From contig CAJXLT010000003.1 in NCBI GenBank assembly GCA_913056365.1, positions 62,001-126,000 of the forward strand: a stretch of 64,000 bases of DNA, read 5' to 3'. Shown here piece after piece: positions 18,542-60,648 of this stretch (positions within the stretch are counted from its first letter, which is position 1; every line of letters starts with the position of its first letter). The position numbers were made by a program, and so were the translations under genes. This DNA is from an uncultured Paenibacillaceae bacterium (lineage in GTDB: Bacteria > Bacillota > Bacilli > Paenibacillales > K13). Below the pieces are notes generated by a model. The model ran no database searches, had not been told where the DNA came from, and saw only the letters and a program-made list of their open reading frames with translations.

Positions 18542-18686
18542 GAGTTCCTCACATGGATGTAATAGTCTATATTTGTTGGACGATAGATGGAATCTACGAA
18601 ATATCGTGCTCGGCGTCTGGCTTGTAAACTGCTGTCGTGCTGCCATCTTGTCTGTTGTACAAACGGGCTAGTCGGGCTTACTGGCT

Positions 18687-18871
18687 CAAATTCCTGCGAA
18701 CGTGCAGGCTTTGATAGCGCTGTAGCGCAAATTTCACGAAATTCCTGCGAATCTGCATTTTTCAAATCACGGAAGAGCTGTATCCAGCCAATTGGACATT
18801 GAAAGGATGTATGATCGCAGGTTTTAGGCTGATATGGGCTGTCTTCGAATGAACACCTGCACATTTGCATC
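18687..18871 (+). repeat. Dispersed palindromic element, copy 1 (diverged)
   Basis: One copy of a roughly 185-nt imperfect palindrome found five times in the window. Four core modules are visible: TTCCTGCGAACGTGCAGG (18691-18708), CCTGCGAATCTGCA (18744), AGGATGTATGATCGCAGG (18804) and CCTGCACATTTGCAT (18856). Modules 3 and 4 are inverted relative to 1 and 2. It lies between the divergent MalT-like and SLH genes; the rest of this 525-bp gap is AT-rich promoter-like sequence. Confidence 0.75.
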
Positions 18872-18979
18872 TATTCATCCTTCTCACCGAACGTCACCTA
18901 ACGCTCATCAGAAGTAGATCATAGTAGCGTAGTAGGCTCAACATCTTTCTATCATTTATTATACAAAAAAGTAGAACAA

Positions 18980-23535: not shown

Positions 23536-23669
23536 ACGTGTGAAGGCATGGTTCTACGATCACTGTTGATCTATGTGGTGAGCCGAGACAGTTATTTGTA
23601 AACGTTACTACGCGGGTGAATGATTTCGATCTGAGACATCTTCATAATTTCCGAGTTGATTATAAAATT

Positions 23670-23855
23670 GAATCCATAGTGCAGGCTTTTCATCCCAAAC
23701 GTCCCCGAAAGTGGCGAATACCTGCGATTGTACATCCTTATGAAGCACAGACTGCCTAATCGGATCAATATCCGTATGCCAAGATGCAGAATCGCAGCAA
23801 TTTTGGTAACTCGCCTTTTCTGTGCACTCCAAGCCTGCACATTTGCAGTAATTCT
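23670..23855 (-). repeat. Dispersed palindromic element, copy 2
   Basis: Modules: GTGCAGGCTTTT (23679), GCGAATACCTGCGATTGTAC (23714), AAGATGCAGAATCGCAG (23780) and AAGCCTGCACATTTGCAG (23831). The TACATCCTTATGAAGCAC segment is in the left half, so this copy is opposite to those at 47.7 and 48.95 kb. It fills most of the 508-bp gap between the convergent SLH gene and the methionine-rich protein gene; the remainder holds the terminator and nothing else I recognise. Confidence 0.8.
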
Positions 23856-23990
23856 CACTTTACTTCATGAACAACGGGCAAATAGTAACGGAAAATCGCA
23901 TATAGGTTCGATATCCCTCCTATTGGACTTTTTGTGTGAACAATCGTACGAAGTTAGCAGAAGGTGATCCAGTTGAATGATCGTGCCGGA

Positions 23991-26633: not shown

Positions 26634-28448
26634 TTGGATCTGAGAATGGGTATGTTCTTTATTTTGCTAGTGGCTACAACGCTCATGCTAATCATTGCCT
26701 ATTTATCATACCGAAGAAGACGACAGGACGAAGGCAAATACGGCGCTTTGGTCATGCTTGCTGTTGCGTTCTATTCGTGCGGCTATGCGTTCGAAATTAT
26801 TAGCCCTAATCTAGAGCAGGCGAAGTTCTGGCTGAAGGTTCAATATATCGGGATTCCGTTCATTACGACCTTCTGGCTCCTCTTGGTCATCAGCTATACC
26901 GGACATCGGTCCTTATTGAAGAAAAAGAAGATGTTGCTGTTGTTGTTTGCCGTCCCGTTGGCAACATTCATCTTGCAGTTTACGAATGACAGCCACCATC
27001 TCTTCTACCGTGATATTGTGTTCAACCTGGACGATACGGTGCTCTCTGGTCTCATTCTAAGTAAAGGACCTTTCTACTGGGTACACATCGTCTATCTATA
27101 CACAGAAGCAGTAGTCGGAATCAGCTTGTTTGCACGGATGTATATGAAGGCTATTCCTATCGTTCGCAGGCAAGTGATGATGCTATTCTTGGGTGTCGCA
27201 GCGCCATGGATATGCAACATTGTCTATCTCACTTCGTATGACTGGTTGAATCTGGACTTGACCCCGTTCGGCTTCGTATTGACTGGCTTCATCTATCTGT
27301 GGGGAATTTATCGGCTCAATCTTCTTCGACTCGTTCCTGTTGCTTACCAGAAGGTGTTCGAGACGATGCATGATGGCGTCATTATTCTTGACTATGATCG
27401 TAATTTGTCGCATGTGAATGATGCGGCCAGAGCGATATTCGAAGAGTTGAGCGCATGGGATGGTCAAGTCATATCGATTCGAGCCTTTCTGTCCTCCCAC
27501 CCGGATCTGCTGGCGAAGGTTGAAGATGTTGCTGAGCATAGTGAAAGCCGTATTACTCTCCACACGAGTGAAGGGACAAGCCACTATCATGTCAAGATTT
27601 CTACTATTTATGACAAGTCGCAGATGATTCTCGGGAAAGTATTGATCTTGAACAATGTTACACAATCGATTCAGTATCAGGAAGAGCTGTTGGCTACTGC
27701 GAATCAGCTGGAGGAGCTGCATGCCTTCAAGGATAAGGCGTTCGCTATCGTCACCCACGATATCCGTGATCCGCTCGCGATGCTGGTCAATCTGACGGAT
27801 ATTATCGAAGGAGATTTCGTGGATGTTGACAAGGAAGAATCGCGTATCTTCCAAGAGATGAACAAGAAGGTCAAGGATACATACTGGCTGGTGGACAATA
27901 TGCTGAATTGGTTCCGCAGTCAGAAGGGGAAGGTATACTTTCGCCCGCTTGTATGGGAGCTGGAACCGATTGTGCGCCAGTCCGTTCAAGCGGTACACCA
28001 TCGCATCACGATGAAACACATTCAAATGTCAGTAGAAGTTCAAGCAGATGCGAAGGTGTATGCAGACAAGGATATGGTAGAGATGATCGTAAGGAATCTG
28101 CTGTTCAATGCAGTCAAATATACGGATACAGGCGGCCAAATCCGCATCCATGCACAGCATACGGAGACGAGTGTGACCATTTCCGTTCGGGACTCCGGTA
28201 TCGGTGTCGATCGGGATGTTGGCAAATCATTGTTCGACGATATGCAGCAGAGCTCTTCACAAGGAACAGAAGGTGAGCCCGGTGCTGGTCTCGGCCTGTA
28301 CTTGTGCGGGAAGTTCGTTCGTCTGCATGGCGGCGACATCTGGTATGAGTCGGAACTAGGGAGAGGCAGCACGTTCTTCTTCACTCTCCCTATGCACGAA
28401 GCGGCAGCAGATTCACAGCGCACGTGGCGGGAGGTTGATGAAGGATGA
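26634..28448 (+). CDS. Sensor histidine kinase with 7TM N-terminus and PAS domain
   Basis: A 604-residue kinase. Seven or so membrane helices (about 4-225, histidine-kinase N-terminal 7TM type) precede a PAS-like domain (about 235-345, VFETMHDGVIILDYD), HisKA with VTHDIRDPLAMLVNL (His375) and an ATPase domain (NLLFNAVKYT, DSGIGVD, GAGLGLYLCG). TTG 26634 is chosen because GGGGG lies 7 nt upstream; ATG 26646 is an alternative. The stop overlaps the regulator's ATG by 4 nt (ATGA), so the two are coupled. The short DI(R)DPL box is a known HisKA variant. The 209-bp gap upstream shows no clear operator. Confidence 0.9.
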   Translation: MDLRMGMFFILLVATTLMLIIAYLSYRRRRQDEGKYGALVMLAVAFYSCGYAFEIISPNLEQAKFWLKVQYIGIPFITTFWLLLVISYTGHRSLLKKKKMLLLLFAVPLATFILQFTNDSHHLFYRDIVFNLDDTVLSGLILSKGPFYWVHIVYLYTEAVVGISLFARMYMKAIPIVRRQVMMLFLGVAAPWICNIVYLTSYDWLNLDLTPFGFVLTGFIYLWGIYRLNLLRLVPVAYQKVFETMHDGVIILDYDRNLSHVNDAARAIFEELSAWDGQVISIRAFLSSHPDLLAKVEDVAEHSESRITLHTSEGTSHYHVKISTIYDKSQMILGKVLILNNVTQSIQYQEELLATANQLEELHAFKDKAFAIVTHDIRDPLAMLVNLTDIIEGDFVDVDKEESRIFQEMNKKVKDTYWLVDNMLNWFRSQKGKVYFRPLVWELEPIVRQSVQAVHHRITMKHIQMSVEVQADAKVYADKDMVEMIVRNLLFNAVKYTDTGGQIRIHAQHTETSVTISVRDSGIGVDRDVGKSLFDDMQQSSSQGTEGEPGAGLGLYLCGKFVRLHGGDIWYESELGRGSTFFFTLPMHEAAADSQRTWREVDEG

Positions 28449-29563
28449 AGGTCATTGTCATCGATGATGAGAAGGCGATGCATTATATTATGAACAAGAT
28501 GCTTGGCAAATTTTCGGATGTTGACGTTGTCGGCTGCTTCGGGGATACTCCTTCTGCGATACAATATCTGGATGAGCACGAAGTGCATGTAGCTTATGTC
28601 GACATCAGCATGCCGGGGGAAACCGGCATCCAGTTCGCTGAACGGATAGCACAGCTGAAGCCAGAACTGCATATTGTCTTCGTCACCTCCCATGATGAAT
28701 ATGCGCTGCATGCGTTCGAGCTTGCCGCACTTGATTATATGATGAAGCCCGTCAATCTCGAACGTCTGGGAACTTCGGTGGAGCGGGCAAGGGCGCTGTT
28801 TCACTCTCAGGAGACCGCCGCTGCGGAGTCAGACTCTAATCCCGTGCGCATATACGCACTTGGCGGCTTGGAAGTTCAGACCGCACATGGCAATGTGAAA
28901 TGGATCTCCCGCAAAAGTGCAGAGTTGTTCGGTTATCTGCTTCTGCATCGGGGCAGAGTGGTTTCCCGTGTCAGGATTATTGCCGACGTATTCGGCGACA
29001 TGCCGCCAAGCAATGCGGAGAAGTATCTGAATACGTCTATCTATCATCTTCGCAAAGCACTGGAACCGCACGGACTGAAGTCGATCATACAATCGGATAG
29101 TGAGGGCTATCGGCTGCAGCTTGCGGACGCATGTATAGATGTTGTCGAATTCGAGGGAAATGTGAAACGTCTGGCGCAGATTGATTCTTCCAATCTGGAG
29201 GAGGCTCTGGAGTCAGAGACGCAGTATGTCGGGGATTTGTTCGGCGAGCGCGGGTTCGGGTGGGCGTTGAATGAGGTGGAGCGGCTGTCCGCTCTATACA
29301 CAGATTTTGTTAAAAAACTGGCGAATGTGCTACTAGAACAGCACGAGGAAGATGCAGCCATTCGCACGCTGAATAAGTTGTTCAACCGTAATGAATTGGA
29401 CGAGGAGACAGTCAGATTGCTGCTTCAAGCCTATGCGGCTAAGCAAGATCAAGAGTCGTTGGAGGCATTATACCAACGGCACGTCACCGTATTGCGTGAA
29501 GAGTTGGATATTGAACCAGCGAAGGAGCTCGAAGCGCTCTATGCCAAGCTATTGGCACAGTGA
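28445..29563 (+). CDS. Response regulator with SARP-type DNA-binding and BTAD domains (second copy)
   Basis: A 372-residue paralogue of the regulator at 14795. The receiver has IDDEK, AYVDISMPG (Asp53), VTSHDEYAL and MMKPVNLE. The winged helix (about 135-230) contains RKSAELFGYLLLHRG, and the BTAD region runs to about residue 370. ATG 28445 lies in the kinase stop overlap. It ends at a strong terminator, after which come TCTTTTA boxes and a receiver-only gene. SARP-type proteins recognise direct repeats 11 bp apart, so this protein is the leading candidate to bind those boxes. Confidence 0.88.
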   Translation: MKVIVIDDEKAMHYIMNKMLGKFSDVDVVGCFGDTPSAIQYLDEHEVHVAYVDISMPGETGIQFAERIAQLKPELHIVFVTSHDEYALHAFELAALDYMMKPVNLERLGTSVERARALFHSQETAAAESDSNPVRIYALGGLEVQTAHGNVKWISRKSAELFGYLLLHRGRVVSRVRIIADVFGDMPPSNAEKYLNTSIYHLRKALEPHGLKSIIQSDSEGYRLQLADACIDVVEFEGNVKRLAQIDSSNLEEALESETQYVGDLFGERGFGWALNEVERLSALYTDFVKKLANVLLEQHEEDAAIRTLNKLFNRNELDEETVRLLLQAYAAKQDQESLEALYQRHVTVLREELDIEPAKELEALYAKLLAQ

Positions 29564-29652: not shown

Positions 29653-29687
29653 TCTTTTATTTTTCTTTTATTGGCATTATGTACAAT
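29653..29687 (+). promoter_or_regulatory. SARP-type promoter: two TCTTTTA boxes 11 bp apart plus -10
   Basis: TCTTTTA at 29653-29659 and 29664-29670 (11-bp period) is followed 11 nt later by the -10 TACAAT at 29682-29687. No good -35 is present; the boxes take its place. This matches the known layout of SARP-activated promoters. The same layout recurs at 34212 and 38317. Confidence 0.6.
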
Positions 29688-29730
29688 GACATCACTGGTC
29701 GATCCAAGGAAAGGGGGCGGCTCCCATAGC

Positions 29731-30120
29731 GTGTTGAAATTGTTGCTGCTGGAGGATCAATCTGCAGATCAGGAGGCTGTTGAACGCATCATCCGGTCCC
29801 TCCCCGATGTGCAATGGTTGGGGGCTTACGCCAATCCGCAGGAAGCATTGGCCGAAGCGGATCGGAATAGACCGGACATCGTCATTGCTGCTATAGAGCT
29901 TGCAGACATGAACGGCCTTGCATTCACGAGTAAGCTACAAGCGATACATCCGTCAGTGCGTGTGATTGTTGCTGCCCACAGCGGCGATTATGCCAGAGAA
30001 GCTTATGACGCGGGGGCGAGAGGGTATCTGATCAAGCCGATTGATCCGAACAGCTTGATGAAAGTGTTAGGCACAGTCTCAACGCTAAAGGAGTGTTCGA
30101 ATATGAATAAATTGGAATAA
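29731..30120 (+). CDS. Stand-alone receiver protein lacking the phospho-acceptor aspartate
   Basis: A 129-residue receiver-only protein. It keeps the acidic pair (LLLLEDQ), the helix NRPDIVIAA, the NG turn (DMNGL) and the conserved lysine (GYLIKPID). The residue aligned with the phospho-acceptor is Ala54 (VIAAIELADMNG, where LDIxMPxxNG is usual). It therefore should not be phosphorylated in the normal way; such pseudo-receivers are known to act by binding ligands or partners. The GTG start at 29731 is set by comparison with related starts at 34282 and 38389 (MLK...); the ribosome site GGGGG is 14 nt away. It precedes the frameshifted SLH lipoprotein gene and may be co-transcribed with it. Confidence 0.75.
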   Translation: MLKLLLLEDQSADQEAVERIIRSLPDVQWLGAYANPQEALAEADRNRPDIVIAAIELADMNGLAFTSKLQAIHPSVRVIVAAHSGDYAREAYDAGARGYLIKPIDPNSLMKVLGTVSTLKECSNMNKLE

Positions 30121-30204
30121 GTAGCATCTTTTTATGAAGAAGTTATCTGTAAATCTGGCACTGCCGGCGTCCTGACAAAAACAAAGCATAAGGAGTGAAG
30201 AAAG

Positions 30205-33200
30205 TTGTTGCGTCGTATGAAAAAGTATTTTTTGCCTCTGAGTATCCTGTCGGTGATCATTTTCTTAAGCGGATGTATTGTACAATTAAGTAGTTTAGAC
30301 ATTTTGCTGACGGAGCCGTTGAATGCCGGGGAAGAAATCCATCTTCGATTTTCTGACGGGAGCCCGGATTCTTCATATTCAGACCCCGCACCAGATCAAG
30401 CCTGTATTACAAATCCAGGTGTCAATTGTAAAAGAATTTATGTAACTAGTATCCCCACCGGAAAAACCATTGTGGGCGCCTATATTACCGACAACAATGT
30501 AAGCTGGGTTCCGTCTTACGCATATGCAACCAATGGTCGTGTGGTAGAGGCTTCAGCGATTCATGATTCCAAACCCGAAATTCCCGCGCAATATTATCAA
30601 CTGGCATCAGTTGAACCTTCGGATGTGGAAGACTATAGCAAGGTTACGTTCAATATCCATGGCATGAACAACAGCGATGCCTTGGCATTAGTCGACGGAA
30701 GAACGGAAGTATTTGCTCTTGCAAGCGCTGTGACATTTTATAATTATGATGAGATGGACACGAACCCCCAATCTGAATCACTGGATTCCATCGAAGGAGG
30801 TTTTTCCTCATTCACAACGGATGGCCAGGTCGTGTTTCTGATGAAAACGGAAGGGCTAGAACTGGAGCAATTGACATTGCATTCAGGCCCAACCCTATTA
30901 CAAGAGCTGCCGGAGGAGGTACACGTAACCTACAATGGAAATGGTGCTGAAGACTCAGTTCCGAGTGACAGCAACGCATATTTTCCGGGTATAGAAGATA
31001 CGGTAGAAGTGTTAGGAGTAGGAGGTATGACAAAGACGGGGCACTCGTTCACGGGCTGGAATGCGACGGGAACCGTTAGCGAAGCGGTATATGAGGAAGG
31101 GGATACCTTCACGATTTCAGAGGATACCACTTTGTATGCAGTATGGACACCGAAGCAGTTTAAGGTGACGTATAACGGCAATGGCGATGACGGAACAGGA
31201 ACCGTGCCATCGGCAGTCACGGAAGATTATGGTTCAGCCGTAACCGTGTCAGGGAACACAGGCAATCTGGCCAAAGAGAACTACTCGTTCGCAGGCTGGA
31301 ATACGGCAGCGAACGGCAGCGGGGACAGTTTCTCCGCAGGATCAAGCTTCACGATCCCGGCAGCGGATACTACGCTGTATGCACAATGGGAGCCCAATGA
31401 GTATACGGTGACGTATAACGGCAATGGCGATGACGGTACAGGAGCCGTACCGTCGGCAGTCACGGAAGATTATGGTTCAGCCGTAACATTGTCAGGGAAT
31501 ACAGGCAATCTGGTCAAAGAGGGCTACTCGTTCGCAGGCTGGAATACGGCAGCGAACGGCAGCGGAACAAGTTACAATACCGGTGCTAGCTTCACCATTC
31601 CGGCAGCGGACACCACACTGTATGCCCAATGGACAATCAATGAGTATACGGTGACATATAACGGCAATGGCGATGACGGTACAGGGACCGTGCCATCGGC
31701 AGTTACGGAGGATTATGGATCAGCCGTAACCGTGTCAGGGAACACAGGCAATTTGGTCAAAGAGGGCTACTCGTTCGCAGGTTGGAATACGGCAGCGAAC
31801 GGCAGCGGAACAAGTTACAATACCGGTGCTAGCTTCACCATTCCGGCAGCGGATACCACACTGTATGCGCAGTGGAATAGCGGCAATGCGATGCTTGGAG
31901 ATTTGTCCGTCAGTCCGGGAACATTGGACTTCAATCCATCGGATTTGAACTATACGGTGGATGTGGGGAATAATATCGCAAAAGTCGACATCTTCATCAC
32001 AAAAGGTGATCCGACCCAAACACTGATGGTAACCGACGCAGCCTTTCAGTCAGTGACGGATAGCGTGTACCATTATGAGTTATCCAATCTTGTAGTGGGC
32101 GAAAATCCGTTGCAAATTCAGGTTTCAGCGCAAGACGGCACACAGAATGATTACAATCTGACCATACAACGACTCAGCAATAATGCTGATCTAAGCGGGT
32201 TGACGCTGTCGAATGGCACGATGGTCCCAGTTTTTGCGGACTCGGAAACATCCTATACAACAGAGGTCTCGAACCATGTGGACCGTTTGACGATCACACC
32301 GACATTCGCGGATGTGGACGCCAGCGCTACGGTGAGCATAAACGGCGGGACAGCCGCACCGCTCACGGACGGAACTGAGAGCGGGGAATTGGCGTTGGAT
32401 GTGGGCGTCAACACGATTGCGATTGCGGTTACCGCAGAAGACGGCACACCCAAAACCTACACGATTGCTGTGACGCGGGAAGGAAGCGGCAACGCTGATT
32501 TAAGCGGCTTGACGCTTTCAAACGGTACGCTGACCCCGGCGTTTGCAGCCTCGGAACCGTCGTATACAGCGGAGGTAAGGAACAGCGTTCGCAGCCTGAC
32601 CATCACGGCGATGCTCGCCGATGTGAACGCTAGCGCCACGGTGAGCGTGAATGGCGGGACAGTCGATCCGCTCACGGCCGGAACCGCGAGTGGAGAATTG
32701 TCATTGAATGTGGGCGTCAATTCGATTGAAGTATTAGTAACTGCGCAAGACAGCACTACGACCAAAACCTACACGATTGAAGTGACACGAGCACGCTCCT
32801 CTGGCGGAAGCTCTGGAGGCAATCCGAGCGGTGGAGCACCATCTGGACCAGCACCAACGGACCAGAACGAATCCGACCTCGATGTGACGATTGACGGTGA
32901 AACGGAGCAAGCGATAGCAACAGCAACCGCTTCTGAGCAGGAGGGACAGGCCGTGCTGACCGTGATCGTGGATGCAGCGAAGCTGACAGAACGTTTGACG
33001 AGTGCAGCCGATCAGCCTGTGGTGACCATACCTGTTGCCGCAACCACGGACAAAGTGATGGTTGCCCTTACAGGCGAAACAGTCAAAGTAATGGAGAACA
33101 AGCAAGCGACGTTGGATGTTCGAACACCGAACGGCAGCTACACGCTTCCGGCATCGGAAGTAGCTATCGAACAGCTTGCCGAACAGCTTGGGGCAGGTAC

Positions 33201-34120
33201 GGCGTTGGAGAATATCACCGTTCACGTTGACATTGCGAAGAGCGGCAGCGCGACAGTAGAGCTGCTGGAAAGCGCAGCGAACGAAGGACAATTTACAGTT
33301 GTCGTACCGCCTGTAGATTTCACCGTAACGGCTGAATTCAACGAGAAGGCAGCACAAGTCACGAAGTTCAACGCTTTCGTCGAACGCGAGATCCCGATTC
33401 CGAACGGCGTAGATGCCAACATGATTACAGCGGCCGTCGTGTTGAACGAAGACGGCTCGACCCGTTCCGTGCCGATGAAGATTGTGACGCGTGACGGCGT
33501 TTCCTATGCGGTCATCAACAGTTTGACGAACAGTACGTATGCGATAGTCTCCTATCCGGTCGCATTCCATGATGTCGCGAACCATTGGGCGAAGGATGCT
33601 GTGAACAATATGGGTTCGCGTATGGTTATCAGCGGCTTCGAAGATGGGAAATTCCAACCGGATCAAGCGATTACCCGTGCGGAATTTGCAGCGATCATCA
33701 TACACGGACTAGGCTTGAAGCCGGAACAAGGTGCAAGCAGCTTCTCGGATGTGATGGCAACCGCATGGTACCATGATGCAGTGAACACCGCAGCAGCGCA
33801 CGGCCTGATCATTCGAAGACGACACCTTCCGTCCGAATGACAAGATTACCCGCGAGCAGGCGATGGTCATTGTCGCCAAGGCGATGGCGATTGCCGAGCT
33901 GGAAGGAAAGTCTGCCGAACAGTCGGCAGCAGCCATTCTTCAATCCTTCACAGACGCAGCGCATGTGTCAAGCTGGGCTGAGAGAGGTGTGGCAGACAGT
34001 GTGCAAGCAGGCATAGTATCGGGAAGAGGCAGTAATGCTTTGGCACCGCAAGATTCCATGACCAGAGCAGAGGTAGCGGTTATCGTAGAACGATTGCTGA
34101 AGACAGCTGGACTTATATAA
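30205..34120 (+). pseudogene. SLH lipoprotein with Flg_new and beta-sandwich repeats, frameshifted near its C-terminus
   Basis: TTG 30205 is 9 nt after AAGGAG and starts a lipoprotein signal (MLRRMKKYFLPLSILSVI then LSGC). Order: a unique domain (about 30-230); four Flg_new repeats, three of them nearly identical; three cadherin-like beta-sandwich domains (LTLSNGT pattern); a Gly/Ser linker; the pre-SLH module also found in protein 19067; then SLH domains. The first frame stops at 33840. The second SLH domain breaks at about 33812, where GLI is followed by one stray base and then FEDDTFRPNDKITREQ in a shifted frame running to 34120. Compared with the first SLH (ATCAGCGGCTTCGAA), five bases are missing. 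The truncated product would keep about one and a half SLH domains. Confidence 0.8.
31168..31896 (+). repeat. Three 243-bp tandem repeats encoding Flg_new domains
   Basis: Units start near 31168, 31411 and 31654, each with AACGGCAATGGCGATGACGG. A diverged fourth unit precedes them (about 30924-31150). The high identity implies recent amplification. Confidence 0.85.
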
Positions 34121-34141
34121 CGGAAGACTATATTTCACATC

Positions 34142-34176
34142 CACAACCCGCGAGGCTAACAGCCGCGCGGGTTGTG
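34142..34176 (+). terminator. Terminator after the SLH lipoprotein gene
   Basis: CACAACCCGCGAGGCT and AGCCGCGCGGGTTGTG make a 16-bp stem with one mismatch and a 3-nt loop. It is related in sequence to the terminator at 29605 and, like it, stands before a TCTTTTA-box promoter. Confidence 0.75.
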
Positions 34177-34211
34177 TCGTGGTATGTGAGTCAATTGAGC
34201 TCGTACTGCGT

Positions 34212-34245
34212 TCTTTTATTACTCTTTACCCGCGATCTGTACAAT
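34212..34245 (+). promoter_or_regulatory. SARP-type promoter, second copy
   Basis: TCTTTTA at 34212-34218 and TCTTTAC at 34223-34229 (11-bp period), with TACAAT at 34240-34245, 10 nt downstream. It now drives only a gene remnant. Confidence 0.55.
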
Positions 34246-34281
34246 GAATGACAATCGTAGAGAGGGGGAGGCTTCCATAGC

Positions 34282-34330
34282 ATGTTGAAGTTGTTATTGC
34301 TGAGGAACAGCCTACATTGCCTGTACCCCG
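34282..34330 (+). pseudogene. Remnant of a receiver-only gene
   Basis: ATG 34282 begins MLKLLLL, as in the receiver at 29731, and the leader GAGGGGGAGGCTTCCATAG matches that gene's leader. After seven codons one base is missing relative to that gene. Homology stops, and the reading frame runs into the dispersed palindromic element. This looks like a decayed duplicate whose body was lost, possibly at the time the element arrived. Confidence 0.6.
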
Positions 34331-34348
34331 GAAGCGACTATCACGCCG

Positions 34349-34545
34349 ACACAGAAATTCCTGCGATCATGCATCTTTTTCCACCCAAACCGGCCCTAAA
34401 ATGGCAAATACCTGCGGATATACATCCTTATGAAGCTCAGAATGCCTGATCAAGTGAATTTCCGTATGCAAAGATGCATATTCGCAGGCATTCTGGAAAA
34501 TCGCCTCTGCTGCGCCCTCCAAGCCTGCACATTTGCAGGACTTGC
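34349..34545 (-). repeat. Dispersed palindromic element, copy 3
   Basis: Modules: ATTCCTGCGATCATGCATC (34357), ATACCTGCGGATATACATCC (34408), AAGATGCATATTCGCAGGCA (34471) and AAGCCTGCACATTTGCAGGA (34521). It has the same orientation as copy 2. It begins right after the receiver-gene remnant. Confidence 0.8.
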
Positions 34546-34594
34546 TTGCACATAGGGTATGCACGCAGGCTGCCGAAGCGAATGCCTGCAACTC

Positions 34595-34730
34595 GGAAGC
34601 GTCCATACACGCTAGCACAGAAATGCCTGCTTTTATGCATCCTTTCCCCAAAAACCTGATTGAGAGTAGCGAAGCCCTGCAATCGGGGTCAGCGCCTTAT
34701 GAGATGAACACCAACTGCAGGAATTCTCGC
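34595..34730 (-). repeat. Partial copy of the dispersed palindromic element
   Basis: CGGAAGCG followed by GCACAGAAATGCCTGC and ATGCATCCTTTCC (34595-34648) repeats the start of copy 3 together with its flank (34330-34385). It then degenerates, ending near CTGCAGGAATTC. It appears to be a second, decayed insertion or a local duplication. Confidence 0.55.
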
Positions 34731-34795
34731 TTCATACCAAGTGCGTTAGCAGAACATGAAGTAGGCGATCAAGCAAAAAAACTGGAGTCACCCTG

Positions 34796-34859
34796 TTGAC
34801 AATAAAGTGTATGAAGGGTATAGTACACTTACAGTGTATGAACCACTTAGTACATACAC
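34796..34859 (+). promoter_or_regulatory. Sigma-A promoter with two GntR-type operators
   Basis: TTGACA (34796-34801), a 17-bp spacer and TATAGT (34819-34824) form a near-consensus promoter. AGTGTA-N12-TACACT (34806-34829) overlaps the -10, and GTGTATG-N12-CATACAC (34834-34859) lies just after the expected start point. Both have the same 12-nt spacing, as expected for two dimers of one repressor, most likely the GntR protein encoded next. Confidence 0.8.
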
Positions 34860-34889
34860 GCGAACAAGCGAAGGTGAGGGTTGGGACAT

Positions 34890-35282
34890 ATGAATGTTGC
34901 ATTCAATAACCGGGACCCGATCTACTTGCAGGTCGTGCGCTATTTCAAGGCCGAGATAGCCGCAGGCAGGCTGGAGGCGGGGGAGGAAATCCCGTCGCGC
35001 AGAGAGCTGGCCGCGCTGCTGAAGATTAATCCCAATACCGCGCAAAGGAGTTATAAGGAGATGGAGGAACAAGGCTTGATTGTGACGGCAGGCAATTCCC
35101 CAAGCCGCATTACGAGGGACGAAGGGATATTGAAATCAATCAGGCAGGAGTTGATCAACGAAGCGGTTGATTCATTCCTAGCATCGATTCAGGGAATAGA
35201 TATTCCAACAGATGAATTGCTTGATACCATTCGAGACAGATATGGCGCGGAACGTGCGAAGAGTCAGGAGGATCAGAAGTGA
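34890..35282 (+). CDS. GntR family (YtrA-type) transcription repressor
   Basis: A 130-residue regulator. The winged helix-turn-helix (about 8-75) has PIYLQVVRYFKAEIAAG, IPSRRELAALLKINPNTAQR and MEEQGLIVT, followed by a short helical dimerisation tail of the YtrA subgroup. ATG 34890 is preferred over TTG 34881 because GGTGAGGG (34873-34880) is correctly spaced only for the former. Its TGA overlaps the ABC ATPase GTG by 4 nt. It probably represses its own operon through the two inverted repeats upstream. YtrA-type regulators respond to cell-wall antibiotics in Bacillus (known for the family); the inducer here is unknown. Confidence 0.9.
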   Translation: MNVAFNNRDPIYLQVVRYFKAEIAAGRLEAGEEIPSRRELAALLKINPNTAQRSYKEMEEQGLIVTAGNSPSRITRDEGILKSIRQELINEAVDSFLASIQGIDIPTDELLDTIRDRYGAERAKSQEDQK

Positions 35283-35968
35283 TTGACGTACAGCATATAA
35301 CGAAGAACTACGGTCGCAGGAAAGTGTTGAGAGATATTTCGTTCACAGCGGATAAGGGAACGATCACTTGTCTAATCGGCATTAACGGTGCAGGCAAGTC
35401 TACGATATTGAAGGGCATCATGGGATTGGTTCCGCTCAGCAGCGGTACAGTCACAGTCGACGGGACGCCTATGCAGCCGAAGCTCTATGAGAAGCTGGCC
35501 TTCATTCCGGATACGGTGACGATGCCGCCGCGTATGAAGATTCGGGACGCGCTGACGTTCATGCAGGACTTCTACGTGCGATGGAATGAGGAGCGGGCGA
35601 GAGAGCTTATGAAATTTTTCAAGCTGGACCCAAGTGACCGCGTATCGGATCTGTCGAAGGGCAACGGCGCGAAGCTGAACCTGCTGCTCGGGTTGTCGCT
35701 GGATGCGGACTACGTGTTGATGGATGAACCGTTCTCCGGGATCGACATGTTCAGCCGTGAGCAGATTGTCAATGTGTTCACCAGCCATCTGATGGATGAT
35801 CGCGGGGTCATAATTACGACGCATGAAATTCAGGATGTGGAGCATCTCATTGACAAGGCCGTGCTGCTGCATGACGGCAACGTGTTGAAGGAGATTCAGG
35901 TAGAAGACGTTCGCTTGCAAGAAGGGAAATCAGTCGTTGACGTGATGAGAGAGGTGTACCAGCCATGA
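35279..35968 (+). CDS. ABC transporter ATP-binding protein (YtrB-like)
   Basis: A 229-residue single ATPase. Walker A is GINGAGKST (about 37-45), the signature is the variant LSKGNGAKLNL, Walker B is YVLMDEPFSGID and the switch is TTHEIQDVEHL. The GTG start overlaps the GntR stop (GTGA). It works with the membrane protein encoded next, probably as an exporter or bacitracin-type detoxification or regulatory transporter. Confidence 0.92.
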   Translation: MIDVQHITKNYGRRKVLRDISFTADKGTITCLIGINGAGKSTILKGIMGLVPLSSGTVTVDGTPMQPKLYEKLAFIPDTVTMPPRMKIRDALTFMQDFYVRWNEERARELMKFFKLDPSDRVSDLSKGNGAKLNLLLGLSLDADYVLMDEPFSGIDMFSREQIVNVFTSHLMDDRGVIITTHEIQDVEHLIDKAVLLHDGNVLKEIQVEDVRLQEGKSVVDVMREVYQP

Positions 35969-36798
35969 ACCAGTACTGGAAGCTTGTCTATTATGAATTT
36001 GGCCGTCTGCGCAATCTGTACTTTACTTTATTGGCGGGAACGCTGCTGCTGCAAGTTGGGGGATTGATCTGGCATGTGCAGAGCAGAGTGAGTCGTATCC
36101 GTGAAACGATGGAGGAGCAAGCGCTGACAGCGGTAGAATATGTGCAGAAATTTGGATATACGGGGTTCGATGATTATGCGGAGCGGAGTATGTTCTTCAT
36201 GGGTCCGATCGCATTCTGCATCGCCGCTTTGCTGCTCTACGTCTTCCTCATCTGGTACCGCGATTGGTGGGGGAAGAATATGTTCATCTACCGGCTTATG
36301 ATGCTACCGCATTCACGGATGTACTTGTATAGCGCCAAGCTGTCTGTCATTTTGCTGTCTGTATTAGGGCTTGTTGGATTTCAACTCATTCTGCTGTCGG
36401 TTCAACTTAACGTCTACGACTGGTTGATGCCGGATGCATTCAGGCAATCGATGGCATTGAATGAAGTGATCATGATACACCCTTTACTGGAAATGCTTAT
36501 TCCGACTACGTTCTTGGTGTTTGTGCTTTCCTATGCAGCAGGAGCGGCGGGTGTGATTCTCGTCTTCACCGCGATTCTGATGGAACGAAGCTTTCGGTGG
36601 AAAGGGATTGTGGCAGGCATCGTCTACTGCATAACAGCTGTGACCGTATTCCTGCTGCCGATCATTGTGTACATTCCGAATGAGCAGTACTTCTACCCGA
36701 TTGAGGTGTTCTGGATGCTTGTAGGTACAGGGTTATTGGTCACGGTCATATCGGTGTGGCTGAGTGCCTATCTATTGCGAAACAAGGTGAGCGTATGA
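35965..36798 (+). CDS. ABC transporter membrane protein
   Basis: A 277-residue protein with about six hydrophobic segments (starting near 18, 80, 125, 170, 205 and 245), an ABC-2-like topology. ATG 35965 overlaps the ATPase stop by 4 nt. It shows no sequence motif that would identify the cargo. Context makes it the permease of the GntR-controlled transporter. Confidence 0.8.
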   Translation: MNQYWKLVYYEFGRLRNLYFTLLAGTLLLQVGGLIWHVQSRVSRIRETMEEQALTAVEYVQKFGYTGFDDYAERSMFFMGPIAFCIAALLLYVFLIWYRDWWGKNMFIYRLMMLPHSRMYLYSAKLSVILLSVLGLVGFQLILLSVQLNVYDWLMPDAFRQSMALNEVIMIHPLLEMLIPTTFLVFVLSYAAGAAGVILVFTAILMERSFRWKGIVAGIVYCITAVTVFLLPIIVYIPNEQYFYPIEVFWMLVGTGLLVTVISVWLSAYLLRNKVSV

Positions 36799-36821
36799 GT
36801 GCGACAAGGAGGATCGGGAGT

Positions 36822-38024
36822 ATGAGTATGAAACGTTTTTGGTTGCAAATTGCTATTGTCATTCTGATCGTAGCCAGTATTGGAACCTATTATATACGAG
36901 GAACGTCAAGTCATCTGCCAGAATTCGCGCTGGTCCCGAAGCAAGGTGATGCTGAAGCAGCGGAAGGTGTGCTTGTGGAAGGTTTATATCGTCAGACGAG
37001 GTATTCGCCTTCAGTTGACATTCATGTGGATGGAAGCAAGTATGCGAGTGAGCGTTCATTCCTCGAGAGCTTAGATCCTTACTACTGGTCAAGTGGAGAA
37101 GTAGGGCAGCTGGCGAGGGAGTATCGTTCCTTCATGCGCGGCAAGCGTGCGGATCAGAGCTTCTACCAGGATGAGCAGGTAGTAGTCTATGCCGGGCTGG
37201 ACGAGGTGCGCGTGGATGGGCGATGGGAAAGTCAATTCGATATTGCCATATTGAATAAGCAGGACGAGCAGACGATGGAATACGAGGTGCGGGTCCCGGA
37301 CACGAGCGGATATGTATTGGATGAATATTTGTACCCTTATGTCCTGGATGTACAAGTGTACGGCGATGAGCTCGTTATCGTTGTAGCGGCTCGGAACTAC
37401 GACACCGATGATACGGAATACCGCCGTTATAGTCTTGCGTTAGCGAGCGGAGAGATATTGAGCGATGAGCAGCTTCAGTTCCCGTTGGAGGAAGGGGAGC
37501 ATGTGCAGCGAGTATGGGAAACCAAGTTCACGCAAGCTGCATCATACAATGTGTTCTATACAGTGTTCGACGATGAGGAGAGTGGCGGTACGGACTATGG
37601 ACAGTTCATGCGCTACGACCTAGAGTCAGGTCAGATGGATGCGCTGGAGTCCCCGGTCATCGATGAATTTCTGGAATGGCAGACGAGTGAGAATAATATG
37701 CGTGCACAGATCGACGGAGATCGATTAATGCTAACAGAGGTTGGCGGGCAGCATGTGCGCGTGCTGGATTATGACTTGTCTGCAGACCAAGGGACCGTGC
37801 ATCAGATCGAGGCTGCCCATGTGATACATTCGCACATCGCTGACGATCGTATCTATATGCTGATACAGGAAGATCCAGCTTCACCTGCATCCGTGCATGT
37901 CGTGCATCTGCCTACAGGAGAAGTGCTATTCGAAGGTGCGATTGAAGTGAAGGACTCTAAGGCAGAATCGGCTGAGGCGATGCAGAAGCTGGTACTCGAC
38001 AGCATCTCCTTGTTAGAGCCATGA
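36822..38024 (+). CDS. Membrane-anchored extracytoplasmic protein of the GntR/ABC operon
   Basis: A 400-residue protein with one N-terminal membrane segment (KRFWLQIAIVILIVAS) and a large outside domain rich in beta-strand-like Asp/Tyr segments. I do not recognise a family. ATG 36822 is 9 nt after AAGGAGG (36806-36812). An upstream in-frame ATG at 36795, overlapping the permease stop, is an alternative that would add nine residues. The outside domain probably works with the transporter, as extracytoplasmic partners do in YtrBCDE-type systems. The next gene overlaps its stop by 4 nt. Confidence 0.75.
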   Translation: MSMKRFWLQIAIVILIVASIGTYYIRGTSSHLPEFALVPKQGDAEAAEGVLVEGLYRQTRYSPSVDIHVDGSKYASERSFLESLDPYYWSSGEVGQLAREYRSFMRGKRADQSFYQDEQVVVYAGLDEVRVDGRWESQFDIAILNKQDEQTMEYEVRVPDTSGYVLDEYLYPYVLDVQVYGDELVIVVAARNYDTDDTEYRRYSLALASGEILSDEQLQFPLEEGEHVQRVWETKFTQAASYNVFYTVFDDEESGGTDYGQFMRYDLESGQMDALESPVIDEFLEWQTSENNMRAQIDGDRLMLTEVGGQHVRVLDYDLSADQGTVHQIEAAHVIHSHIADDRIYMLIQEDPASPASVHVVHLPTGEVLFEGAIEVKDSKAESAEAMQKLVLDSISLLEP

Positions 38025-38257
38025 CGCTGGAACAACTGTCTGCGAGCTTGAAGGAATACGAAGTGTATTGCTACCGCATCGCTTACTACTTCTTGGAACA
38101 GGAGAGTGCTGCGATGGCAGCAGCACAAGGCGCCTTGCTGGAGCTCGGGGAAGACAGGCGATTTTTCCAGCAATCCTCAGAGGAGCGCCGAACAAGGGCG
38201 AAGCAGGCAGCGATGAAGCATGCGCTGAGAAGCTACGCAGATGCTATAGCTGAATAG
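38021..38257 (+). CDS. Small sigma-70 region 2-like protein
   Basis: A 78-residue protein. The segment YCYRIAYYFLEQESAAMAAA followed by ALLEL resembles the start of ECF sigma region 2, but the rest of region 2 and all of region 4 are absent. ATG 38021 overlaps the preceding stop (ATGA), so it is translated with the transporter operon. It could be a sigma remnant or a small partner of RNA polymerase; both are speculation. A terminator follows at 38266. Confidence 0.6.
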   Translation: MTLEQLSASLKEYEVYCYRIAYYFLEQESAAMAAAQGALLELGEDRRFFQQSSEERRTRAKQAAMKHALRSYADAIAE

Positions 38258-38265
38258 AGTGGATG

Positions 38266-38300
38266 ACAACCCGTGAGGCCGAGTGCCGCACGGGTTTTGT
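38266..38300 (+). terminator. Terminator of the GntR/ABC operon
   Basis: ACAACCCGTGAGGC pairs with GCCGCACGGGTTTTGT across a short loop and has a TTTTGT end. It is related to the terminators at 29605 and 34142, and again stands just before TCTTTTA boxes. Confidence 0.75.
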
Positions 38301-38316
38301 CTGTCTGTGGAGGTAT

Positions 38317-38351
38317 TCTTTTATTCTTCTTTTATCGGTCATCGCTACACT
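38317..38351 (+). promoter_or_regulatory. SARP-type promoter, third copy
   Basis: TCTTTTA at 38317-38323 and 38328-38334 (11-bp period), then TACACT at 38346-38351, 11 nt downstream. It drives the LuxR-type pseudo-receiver gene. Confidence 0.6.
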
Positions 38352-38388: not shown

Positions 38389-38973
38389 ATGCTCAAAGCT
38401 ATTATCGTGGATTGTAATGAAGTATCGGCTCAACGGATGAAGAACAAGCTTGCCTCGAACGGTGAAATCGAAGTTTGCGACATATTCATGAACCTGCAGA
38501 CAGCGAATGCCTATGTCAACAAGTCCGGACAAGTACAGCTGGCATTCCTGAACCTCACGGCACCGGACATTAACGGCATGGGTATTTCCCAGCTGCTTCA
38601 TGAACACCATGCTGCCATCAATGTGATGTTTGTCACGACGTATGATAACTATGCAGCGCAAGCTTATGATATAGACGCTGCGAATTACTTGATGAAGTCG
38701 ATCCTTGAACAACAGATGATCCGCGCGTCTGACAAGAGAAGCAACCAGCAAGCAGAGGAATGCCGCATCCAATACGAAACACTCACCCAGAAGGAAGTAG
38801 AGGTTGTGCAATGTATGACAACTGGCTTGTCTAACAAGGAAATTGCTGAGGAACTGTATGTTTCGGTCGAGACAGTAAAGTCGCATCTCAAGAATGTGTA
38901 CCGCAAGCTGGATGTCAATAATCGCATCCAAGTATTGCAACGTGCCAATCAGTTGAAGATTCTTCGAATCTGA
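38389..38973 (+). CDS. LuxR-type response regulator with defective receiver
   Basis: A 194-residue regulator. The receiver (1-115) has IIVDCNE, where two acidic residues are usual, and AFLNLTAPDING, where Asn55 replaces the phospho-acceptor aspartate; the threonine (FVTTYD) and lysine (YLMKS) remain. The C-terminal LuxR helix-turn-helix (about 130-190) is intact: LTQKEVEVVQ, NKEIAEELYVSVETVKSH. It probably acts without phosphorylation. GGAGGAG precedes ATG 38389. The stop abuts the stop of the convergent gene with no spacer. It shares its leader type with the receiver-only gene at 29731 and the remnant at 34282. Confidence 0.87.
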   Translation: MLKAIIVDCNEVSAQRMKNKLASNGEIEVCDIFMNLQTANAYVNKSGQVQLAFLNLTAPDINGMGISQLLHEHHAAINVMFVTTYDNYAAQAYDIDAANYLMKSILEQQMIRASDKRSNQQAEECRIQYETLTQKEVEVVQCMTTGLSNKEIAEELYVSVETVKSHLKNVYRKLDVNNRIQVLQRANQLKILRI

Positions 38974-56885: not shown

Positions 56886-57331
56886 CGTTCTCCCCCTATC
56901 TTATTTGACGCTACACGAGCTAGGACTGTAGACAGTCCATCTATCTCGAATTGCAAATATGTCGGATGATCGCACTTCATGACCAAATGTCACTGTGACA
57001 AGCGCAGGTATTATGGTTAACTAGTAGTATAGAGTGCTCAGGCATGAGGTTTGTAGAGAAGTGTCTAATTGTATAGAAATTGTATAGAATACCTCGCTAT
57101 ACTAGTGACTGTGGAACTAGTAAGTGTCGAACTTCTCTCATCATACCGTGAGTATCATAAACCATGCAACATCCCGAATACGGGGTTAGGCTATGGGATG
57201 AGTTTCACCTGTTGGGGATAACGTTGTAACAATTTGCATACTCAGTCAGCCTTGAATCAGCGAACAGCATACAACTAGAATGTCAGCAGAGATAGAGCTA
57301 CGCTATTAATAGGGAAGCAAGGGTGATGGTT
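56886..57331. other. Long divergent regulatory region
   Basis: This 446-bp gap holds no gene. It contains a 13-bp perfect palindrome, TGTCACTGTGACA (56988-57000). It also has a tandem ATTGTATAGAA pair (57068-57089) with -10-like TATAGAAT, and a region at about 57160-57220 with short complementary segments (CATCCC/GGGATG). A long 5' leader before a PilZ gene could host an RNA switch, but I do not recognise a known class. Confidence 0.45.
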
Positions 57332-57715
57332 ATGAATATGAGTCGCAGGAACGAAACGTTTCGCTACGAATTCGGAGAACCGTTGGCAGGGAAGTTCCGA
57401 TTAACTGAGATAGATGGGAACAAGCTAGAGAGCCGCATGGGGGAGATGGAAGTGCAGGACATTAGCCTGCAAGGCATGAAGGTAACGATGCCCCTAGATT
57501 TACCAGTCAGGGAGAAAGCCATTAATGGCTTGTTCTATGTTACGATTGCTTCTGCGGACTATACAATTCCGGGCAAATTCATATGGCGTAAGCCTAAGGT
57601 GAATGAGTACCAATATGGTATCCATCTGCAATGTGACAATGCTATGAAGAATGCACTGTTATCAGGGCTGAAGTCCCATGCGAAGTCGAACCTTACTGAG
57701 AAATCAGACTCATAA
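57332..57715 (+). CDS. PilZ domain protein
   Basis: A 127-residue single-domain protein with the cyclic-di-GMP-binding signature of PilZ proteins: an N-terminal SRRNETFR arginine motif and VQDISLQGMKV (D-x-S-x-x-G). A beta-barrel core follows (PGKFIWRKPKVNEYQYGIHL). Several in-frame starts exist (57323 GTG, 57326, 57332, 57338); 57332 fits AAGGGTGA best. It is the first gene before the exopolysaccharide genes and likely reports second-messenger levels to them. Confidence 0.8.
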   Translation: MNMSRRNETFRYEFGEPLAGKFRLTEIDGNKLESRMGEMEVQDISLQGMKVTMPLDLPVREKAINGLFYVTIASADYTIPGKFIWRKPKVNEYQYGIHLQCDNAMKNALLSGLKSHAKSNLTEKSDS

Positions 57716-57812
57716 TTGGCAGTCAACAACGTACGAGAGCAGGAGATCCGCGAGGGGCAGATCCCTGTTTTTTCATTTGCCTATGCATATAGAGAGAAGG
57801 AGAAGCTGGATA

Positions 57813-59318
57813 ATGCGCAACCAACAAGCTCGAGTATTCCGCAGGTCGGTCTTAATGCTGACAGTCGTTGCAATGGCTGGCTTGGCTGTACTTGTATGGA
57901 CGGGATGGCTGTCGCTTGGCACGCATTCATCGGAGGAAGCCGTATCGTCAGCTGACGAATCTGTGCCTGCTATGGGAGTGCCCTCAGAATTGTCATCTGA
58001 AGAACGAAGTTTAGCCATTGATACTATCTTCACTTCGCAGAAGCAGATGGCCTTGACCTTCAACGGATTGGCGGACATGGAGACGATGACTAGCTTGCTG
58101 CATGAATTAGATAAGCACGACATACGCGCGACATTCTTCCTGCCGGGAATGCGTGTAGCGGAGGAACCAGACTTGGTAGAGAAGATCGTGCAGGCAGGAC
58201 ATGAGATTGCGAATAATACGCTCGATCAGCAGGATATGAGCGAGTGGCCGATTGCCGACATCTACGAGGACCTCCGCTTGACGAATGAGCTGATCGAGCG
58301 CGAGGTTGGCATACAGCCTCGATATGTGCGTTCGCGATCCGGTGATTACACCGATGATCTGAGACGAGCTGCCGAGGCGCTGGGCATGGAGGCAGTAGTC
58401 GGCTACAGCATTAACCCGCGAGACCGTGATGGCAAGAGCGCAGCGGAAATCGGGGCTTATGTGGACAGGTATATGCGCAGGGGAGCAGTCGTGCTGCTGC
58501 ATACGAATCTTAATCCCGAGATTGTGGATGCGATCGCCTATATTGCCGATGCTGCAACGCACAAGGGGTATTCATTCGTCCCGATTGGACAATTGCGAGA
58601 GAATGGCACGGTGTACAAGCCGTTGGAGGAGATACCAGGATTCGATGCGGCCCAGATGAATCCGGATTATGCGGATAGGACCTATACGCTTATCGAAAGT
58701 ATACCGAACGGGAAGAAGGAAATTGCTATGACCTTCGATGATTGGGGAAGTGAAGACACGATCAATGCCGTTCTTGACATCCTGGACGACTACGACTTGA
58801 AGTGTACCTTCTTCCTCGTCGGTGAAGGTGTGGAGAAGAATCCGAACCTCGCCCGAGCGATACTGGATGACGGTCATGAGATCGCCAATCATACGTACAG
58901 CCATAAGGTAGTGACGACTCTGTCACCGAAGGAGTTGCAGGAAGAAGTGGTGAAGGGCCATCAAGCGCTGACAGAGGCGCTGCAAGAACCGCCTCTGATG
59001 ATATTCCGGCCGCCGACAGGCGTGTTCGATGACACCGCAGCCCGAATCATTGCCGCCACAGGATATCAGATGATTGTGAATTATGATGTGGACCCAATGG
59101 ACTGGGACGCTGCGCACAGTGCAGAGGATATTACGAATACAATCTTGGAACAGACCGTAGACGGGAGTATCATACTTCTTCATATACTTGACGATAAACA
59201 TACTATAGAAGCTTTGCCGAATGTTATAGAAGGCTTGCAGGCCGAAGGGTATTCATTCGTAAAGGTAACGGAGCTCATGGAATATATGTCAGGCAATGAG
59301 AGGATATTGGAGCAATGA
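57813..59318 (+). CDS. Tandem NodB-type polysaccharide deacetylase, first domain degenerate
   Basis: A 501-residue membrane-anchored protein (RRSVLMLTVVAMAGLAVLVW). Two NodB-like domains: residues about 70-270 and 295-490. The second is canonical, with AMTFDDWG, HEIANHTYSH, FRPPTG and ILLHIL. The first has LTFNGLA instead of TFDDG and HEIANNTLDQ without the second histidine, so its metal site looks lost. AAGGAG is 10 nt before ATG 57813. It overlaps the dehydrogenase gene by 4 nt. It probably removes acetyl groups from an N-acetylated exopolysaccharide or peptidoglycan outside the membrane. Confidence 0.88.
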   Translation: MRNQQARVFRRSVLMLTVVAMAGLAVLVWTGWLSLGTHSSEEAVSSADESVPAMGVPSELSSEERSLAIDTIFTSQKQMALTFNGLADMETMTSLLHELDKHDIRATFFLPGMRVAEEPDLVEKIVQAGHEIANNTLDQQDMSEWPIADIYEDLRLTNELIEREVGIQPRYVRSRSGDYTDDLRRAAEALGMEAVVGYSINPRDRDGKSAAEIGAYVDRYMRRGAVVLLHTNLNPEIVDAIAYIADAATHKGYSFVPIGQLRENGTVYKPLEEIPGFDAAQMNPDYADRTYTLIESIPNGKKEIAMTFDDWGSEDTINAVLDILDDYDLKCTFFLVGEGVEKNPNLARAILDDGHEIANHTYSHKVVTTLSPKELQEEVVKGHQALTEALQEPPLMIFRPPTGVFDDTAARIIAATGYQMIVNYDVDPMDWDAAHSAEDITNTILEQTVDGSIILLHILDDKHTIEALPNVIEGLQAEGYSFVKVTELMEYMSGNERILEQ

Positions 59319-60631: not shown

Positions 60632-60648
60632 TGGATAGGAGTCGTTTC

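Follow-up and report, generated by a model that had tools for sequence, protein, structure and literature searches.

The window analysed here, a stretch of 64,000 nucleotides from an uncultured Paenibacillaceae bacterium (contig CAJXLT010000003.1), carries a sensor histidine kinase gene at 26634, a response regulator gene at 28445 (26634 and 28445 hereafter) and, downstream of these, three promoter-like segments, P1, P2 and P3. In these, heptamers are repeated directly with a period of 11 bp, as in promoters of Streptomyces antibiotic regulatory proteins (SARP). The regulator joins a receiver to a winged helix-turn-helix (wHTH) and a BTAD domain. The features are as follows, all on the + strand:

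26634..28448, sensor histidine kinase (Pfam HisKA_7TM, PAS and HATPase_c), presumed partner of 28445
28445..29563, response regulator (Pfam receiver, Trans_reg_C, i.e., OmpR-type wHTH, and BTAD), proposed activator of P1 and P3
29605..29631, terminator-like hairpin 3′ of regulator gene 28445
29653..29659, P1 box 1, TCTTTTA (pattern scan), unchanged in related genome G001 and TCTTTCA in loci L094 and L061
29664..29670, P1 box 2, TCTTTTA, 11 bp after box 1 (same basis as box 1)
29682..29687, P1 -10 hexamer, TACAAT, 11 bp 3′ of box 2
29731..30120, receiver-only protein, start codon at about 29731 (Pfam on 29734-30120), first gene of P1
30205..33840, surface protein of 1211 aa (Pfam SLH, Listeria-Bacteroides and cadherin-like repeats), proposed main target of P1
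34146..34172, terminator-like hairpin 5′ of P2
34212..34245, P2, decayed duplicate of P1 with TACAAT at 34240-34245, preceding a receiver-gene remnant
38269..38295, terminator-like hairpin 5′ of P3
38317..38334, P3 boxes 1 and 2, TCTTTTA-N4-TCTTTTA (pattern scan)
38346..38351, P3 -10 hexamer, TACACT, 11 bp 3′ of box 2
38389..38973, LuxR-type regulator (Pfam), proposed target of P3

A pattern scan of the window showed TCTTTTA-N4-TCTTTTA without mismatch at 29653 (P1) and 38317 (P3) and a variant at 34212 (P2), all where the initial annotation had placed them. P1 reads TCTTTTA-tttt-TCTTTTA-N11-TACAAT, P3 reads TCTTTTA-ttct-TCTTTTA-N11-TACACT and P2 reads TCTTTTA-ttac-TCTTTAC-N10-TACAAT, with two mismatches in its second box; the claimed distance of 10-11 nt to the -10 hexamer was thus measured as 11 (P1), 10 (P2) and 11 (P3). 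That each promoter stands just after a related terminator was borne out as well, as the ACCCGNGNGGC...GCCGCNCGGGT form (at most three mismatches) had only these three matches in the window (0.00 expected from shuffles), 21, 39 and 21 nt before box 1 of P1, P2 and P3, respectively. The count of three such promoters held for the exact P1 and P3 only. P2 was rejected as an independent third example: over 172 bp it shares 68.6% identity with the P1 segment, and with a damaged second box and only a remnant of the receiver gene behind it, it is a decayed duplicate.

The wHTH of 28445 is followed by BTAD, which is the domain order of SARP, and residues 127-370 of the regulator matched AfsR (8hvr) in a profile comparison (E 1.1e-10). 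An AlphaFold2 model (pLDDT 88.8, pTM 0.62) was compared with the PDB by Foldseek, and the six best matches were all to AfsR (8hvr, 8k60) or EmbR (2fez, 2ff4), so that 28445 is predicted by the model to carry the SARP-module fold. The phospho-acceptor Asp53 was invariant in an alignment of 23 sequences and, together with the adjoining kinase gene 26634, identifies 28445 as a two-component response regulator.

The operator and its place beside the regulator were found to be conserved in relatives. G001, the sole other genome of the genus that was compared, encodes a regulator with 80% identity to 28445, and the two heptamers of P1 recur between its terminator and receiver gene, with altered linker, upstream flank and -10. 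The single exact site of G001 is this P1 counterpart, and the 28445 orthologue is the only match in that genome at E 1e-60. In P. campinasensis (L094) and C. lubricantis (L061) the regulators are 62-63% identical, and TCTTTCA pairs were found in the corresponding place.

Within the 4.65 Mb of its own genome, TCTTTYA-N4-TCTTTYA-N11-TANNNT had three exact matches, P1 and P3, both less than 9 kb from 28445, and C13:98015, beside a second receiver-BTAD regulator (C13). The genome scan for the spaced repeat that had been suggested thus succeeded in its strict form, each exact site lying near a receiver-BTAD regulator, and failed once mismatches were allowed. With at most two mismatches, the strict pattern gave 11 matches vs. 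7 in the reversed control; loose scoring gave 35 matches genome-wide (at most two mismatches), below the 71 for the reversed pattern, and five in the window (at most three mismatches) vs. 3.05 expected. Allowing two to three mismatches gave no excess over control counts, either in the window or in this genome, and was replaced by the strict spaced form. With just three exact sites, a regulon spanning the whole genome was rejected for this strain. The regulon seems to be very small here, consisting of P1, P3 and perhaps the C13 sites.

Sequence-blind searches were made in 37 loci chosen solely for encoding a receiver-wHTH-BTAD protein, counting any intergenic 7-mer repeat followed after 11 bp by TANNNT. 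With at most one mismatch, period 11 gave 29 clusters in 18 loci vs. 3-11 clusters at periods 8-10 and 12-16, and without mismatch six clusters vs. 0-1 at other periods. Period 11 also stood out in 23 held-out loci of close homologues (14 clusters in 8 loci vs. 0-6), taken from genomes whose other loci had been used, and in 37 loci of distant paralogues with 28-36% identity (23 clusters in 18 loci vs. 1-8), whereas 42 control loci with other receivers showed no enrichment (16 clusters vs. 9-22). Measured against the average of the remaining periods, Poisson values were 1.3e-10 for the 37 loci, 8e-6 for the held-out loci, 2.5e-9 for the paralogues and 0.52 for the control. These counts are per strand, so that some repeats count twice (e.g., L243, L245), at every period. 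The 37 loci and the control came from 80 loci found, with L095 dropped as a partial match; the control (L099-L140) consists mostly of receiver-only matches, partly from Bacteroidetes, and L101 matches residues 1-276. Close homologues were defined by at least 37% identity (51 of 109 regulators), and the best 37 of the remaining 58 were fetched as distant paralogues. When the -10 was not required, period 11 gave 138 hits in 19 loci and periods 12, 18, 21 and 22 were also raised (46-68 hits, 11-13 loci); requiring it makes period 11 stand out from these. The 11-bp direct-repeat period of SARP target promoters is hence found at the predicted targets. At three loci (L079 4122-4160, L081 4080-4110 and L084 1626-1680, minus strand) about 4-6 tandem 11-bp units were observed, exceeding the two of P1; they sit upstream of the kinase gene and point away from it.

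Searches with the boxes themselves gave a similar picture. TYTKTYA pairs 10-12 bp from TANNNT (at most one mismatch) numbered 21 in 18 of the 37 loci, all at 11 bp, compared to one site in the reversed loci; the box was derived from these same loci, which makes this count circular and the held-out period and site tests less so. In whole genomes (at most one mismatch), TCTTTYA gave 55 sites vs. 7 reversed in one set of 13 genomes, and TTTGTCA 41 vs. 8 in another 13. In these 26 genomes, a close regulator homologue was encoded no more than 10 kb from 37 of 63 exact sites, compared to 0.41 expected. Conversely, 34 of 51 close regulators had a site (at most one mismatch) within 10 kb, a test that is partly circular since the boxes were read from some of those loci; among regulators not used for reading boxes the figure was 11 of 23 (0.26 expected). 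Across 296 genomes of the order, 92 exact TCTTTYA sites were found vs. 8 in the reversed control, and 88 of these fall in genomes encoding a close 28445 homologue. The regulator was present in 47 of the 51 site-bearing genomes (Fisher 1e-26), with six candidates scored per genome, so that its absence may be overstated. As the genomes are related and the Fisher value is not free of phylogeny, the count was repeated by genus, with labels taken from listing names: the regulator was present in 17 of 19 genera with a site vs. 23 of 48 genera overall (p 4e-6). A listed homologue was found no more than 10 kb from 38 of the 92 sites, with 0.43 expected, or from 27 of 73 when nine genomes seen before were excluded. 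The pairing of regulator and repeat recurs in dozens of related genomes, usually before large surface proteins, and looks like a widespread gene switch.

In a tree of 45 regulators, the 13 rows labelled TCTTTYA and the 10 labelled TTTGTCA required two changes, compared to at least four (mean 7.7) in 300 label shuffles. The labels, given to 23 of the 45 rows by assigned box type, include four rows with two mismatches (L064, L070, L076 and L090). Judged by this tree, operator sequence follows the regulator clade. Distant paralogues were found to adjoin pairs of TTGTTCA, TTGTCCA, TTGTAGA, TTGTCTA, TTGTATA or TTTGCGA, some with one mismatch and all in identical geometry; the remaining repeats among these loci look like chance. 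A one-residue code, in which Thr after LNT would specify TTTGTCA and Ala or Ser TCTTTYA, fitted the first 45 regulators and was dropped, as L226 and L233 have Thr and yet TCTTTYA boxes.

The genome contains nine BTAD matches. At C13 the layout of the present locus is repeated, with a second operon of histidine kinase and receiver-BTAD regulator and TCTTTCA-N4-TCTTTCA directly 3′ of the regulator stop. The best -10 of that pair is TATTAT, not at N11; a second pair (C13:98015) has N11 and TAGAGT and precedes a divergent gene for a secreted protein. The C11 regulator stands by a CTGTTCA/TTGTTCA pair, and at C24 TTGTAGA occurs twice 5′ of the BTAD regulator gene. The C7 paralogue of 28445 (L043, about 8200-9330) looks broken, with a stop inside the receiver and an open frame of 238 aa remaining. 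A further site with the 11-bp geometry and a different heptamer, TTGTATAgaaaTTGTATA-N11-TATACT, was observed at 57069-57103 of the window, about 220 bp 5′ of a run of genes (57323-62691) for PilZ, polysaccharide deacetylase, UDP-sugar dehydrogenase and PilZ-glycosyltransferase. NTGTNNA pairs with N11-TANNNT gave five matches in this genome vs. four in the control, three of them true repeats (TTGTATAgaaaTTGTATA, C11 and C24).

According to the AfsR paper (PMC10936776), SARP promoters have repeats spaced by 11 or 22 bp, with 8 bp between the 3′ repeat and the -10, and a 22-bp box that covers the spacer, with its centre at -29.5, where the -35 and -10 elements are poor. Here 11 bp separate the end of the heptamer from the -10, and the 11-bp unit TTCTTTTATTN, which includes the conserved T..G, ends 8 bp away, a register-dependent figure. 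At 58 distinct sites, positions left free in the search also repeat with period 11 (each heptamer is flanked by T on both sides), and many sites of the TCTTTYA set carry TGN ahead of the -10. None of the 58 sites had at least four of six matches to TTGACA at 16-18 bp, compared to 13% of shuffles; because the -35 window overlaps the boxes, this poverty is partly fixed by the search pattern.

Taken together, P1 and P3 are probably SARP-like, activator-dependent promoters of the 26634/28445 system that drive its own surface-protein cluster. We infer that 28445 is phosphorylated, binds DNA and acts as an activator rather than otherwise. Kinase 26634 would phosphorylate the receiver of 28445, and two SARP modules (OmpR-type wHTH and BTAD) would then occupy two 11-bp units TTCTTTTATTN head to tail, ending, in this register, 8 bp before the -10 at the place of the missing -35. 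There they may hold RNA polymerase as AfsR does, so that the phosphorylated dimer would replace the -35 element. The output of P1 would be the receiver-only protein and the large SLH surface protein, that of P3 the LuxR-type regulator, and the design, with clade-specific operators, is probably shared across Paenibacillaceae.

Several results weigh against this assignment or limit it. No clear orthologue of the P3 gene was found in G001, so that a footprint comparison was impossible for P3, and no single recognition-helix residue explaining the box type was found among the regulators compared. The overlap of the -35 window with the boxes counts here too. Among the 26 genomes, no close homologue lies within 10 kb of 16 of 36 exact TCTTTYA sites or of 10 of 27 exact TTTGTCA sites; of the one-mismatch sites, 11 of 19 for TCTTTYA and a low 1 of 14 for TTTGTCA have one at this distance. 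A site within 10 kb was missing for 17 of 51 close homologues and for 12 of 23 held-out regulators, while in the 296-genome survey 4 of 51 site-bearing genomes had no regulator and 37 of 84 regulator-bearing genomes had no exact TCTTTYA site. Finally, TCTTTYA is used by both the 28445 and the C13 clades, and the C13 regulator could bind such boxes.

This last point leads to an alternative in which the operators are real and the C13 paralogue, or cross-talk of C13 and 28445, uses the P1 and P3 boxes here. TCTTTCA-N4-TCTTTCA pairs do lie after the C13 gene and in the divergent secreted-protein promoter; we nevertheless regard this as unlikely, as 28445 directly precedes P1, the operator stands in the corresponding place at the orthologues of G001, L061 and L094, and G001 has the 28445 orthologue alone and one exact site, the P1 counterpart. 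The initial annotation held that one or both BTAD regulators of the window act on the repeats. Co-occurrence in other genomes strongly favours a receiver-BTAD regulator acting on them, with 28445 as the one candidate indicated. Regulator 14795, the other receiver-BTAD protein of the window, is scarcely to be credited with these promoters: it falls on a separate, weakly placed branch with C11, regulators of this type adjoin other boxes (CTGTTCA/TTGTTCA in the case of C11), none of the three exact TCTTTYA sites of the genome is near it, and no period-11 repeat with N11 and a -10 was found nearby at up to one mismatch, for which reason operators at 14795 were dropped.

Binding of the boxes by a global regulator of the OmpR/PhoB type such as PhoP appears very unlikely. 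Regulators with wHTH domains of that class also use tandem repeats, TTTGTCA resembles the CTGTCAT motif given for the E. coli PHO box (PMC4415409), and AfsR and PhoP are described as having sites in common in Streptomyces (PMC10972967). Against this, the sites co-occur and co-locate with receiver-BTAD regulators, the box type tracks the clade of these, and the first genes are mostly secreted proteins by appearance. It is more improbable still that the likeness of P1, P2 and P3 is a mere remnant of a terminator-promoter duplication with no regulatory role. Such a duplication accounts for P2 and might be read from the related terminators before all three, but not for P1 or P3, and the boxes are kept across species, with an enrichment of period-11 repeats at many further regulator loci.

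Compared to known systems, 28445 resembles SARP (AfsR, ActII-ORF4, DnrI, and EmbR by fold) in the order wHTH-BTAD and in direct repeats 11 bp apart over the spacer of poor promoters. Unlike in SARP activators, the module shares its polypeptide with a phospho-receiver and has a seven-transmembrane (7TM) histidine kinase as partner, the host belongs to Bacillota, the apparent targets are mostly secreted surface proteins and not antibiotic clusters, and the boxes vary by clade. The system thus acts like a SARP, but its N-terminal receiver, host group and targets set it apart from the classical definition (actinomycete, secondary metabolism, no phospho-receiver). With OmpR/PhoB regulators and the PHO box it shares the receiver and wHTH, the tandem head-to-tail boxes and the likeness of TTTGTCA to CTGTCAT; it differs from their plain architecture of receiver and wHTH by the extra BTAD of about 120 residues, by frequent encoding beside its own sites and by the coexistence of several box types in one genome. 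BTAD was reported in 0.6% of response regulators of natural-product clusters, in a paper whose accessible part gave no operators (PMC10663231), and no account of receiver-BTAD operators in Bacillota was found in the literature searched, which does not cover most subscription papers.

SARPs are treated in the accessible parts of the SARP papers as actinomycete activators, mainly of antibiotic genes; here a large Bacillota paralogue family, linked to giant surface proteins, appears to combine SARP-style promoter recognition with a phospho-receiver. As the operators are short, strict and regulator-linked, the regulons of dozens of genomes may be predicted from sequence, and DNA selection by SARP wHTH domains may be studied in the natural series that the paralogues form. 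We tentatively propose that Paenibacillaceae possess an expanded family of insulated receiver-SARP switches, several per genome, with clade-specific 11-bp-repeat operators (TCTTTYA, TTTGTCA, TTGTTCA, TTGTAGA, TTGTCCA, TTGTATA and others), a fixed -10 distance, large surface proteins of their own and receiver-only or pseudo-receiver feedback decoys. If so, these would amount to a wardrobe of cell-surface proteins coupled to sensors, with an operator code that can be read.

The genes behind the sites were also compared. Here both P1 and P3 have a regulator gene in first place, followed at P1 by that of the large surface protein. The receiver-only protein of P1 has Ala where the phospho-accepting Asp is expected, and the LuxR-type regulator behind P3 has Asn at this position (translations). 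Receiver-only or truncated regulator copies were also found behind sites at L070, L071, L203 and L213. Across loci, 32 of 41 distinct first genes, drawn from 46 loci with a gene, showed a crude signal-peptide pattern at the start. Pfam searches of nine full first-gene proteins identified, among others, SLH, GLUG, RCC1, Shr-like HID, Big and Listeria-Bacteroides repeats, and a GGDEF/HD protein at L087. An extra SLH repeat lies at 33863-34120 of the window, in another frame than the SLH gene that ends at 33840; from the reading frames, this break is a frameshift or a sequencing error.

At L164, L171 and L182, sites with a -10 of TAAACT or TAAAGT were observed about 220-265 bp 5′ of a conserved small protein, which by eye looks PpiC-like. 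Two of these adjoin regulators in genome G007; in G012, 72 kb separate the third from a regulator. In addition, a dispersed repeat about 200 bp long, with CCTGCGAA..TGCA motifs in both orientations, was found in intergenic DNA near surface-protein genes, at these positions:

18650-18960, 23640-23940 and 34330-34700 of the window, CCTGCGAA..TGCA repeat
10660-10930 of L041, CCTGCGAA..TGCA repeat

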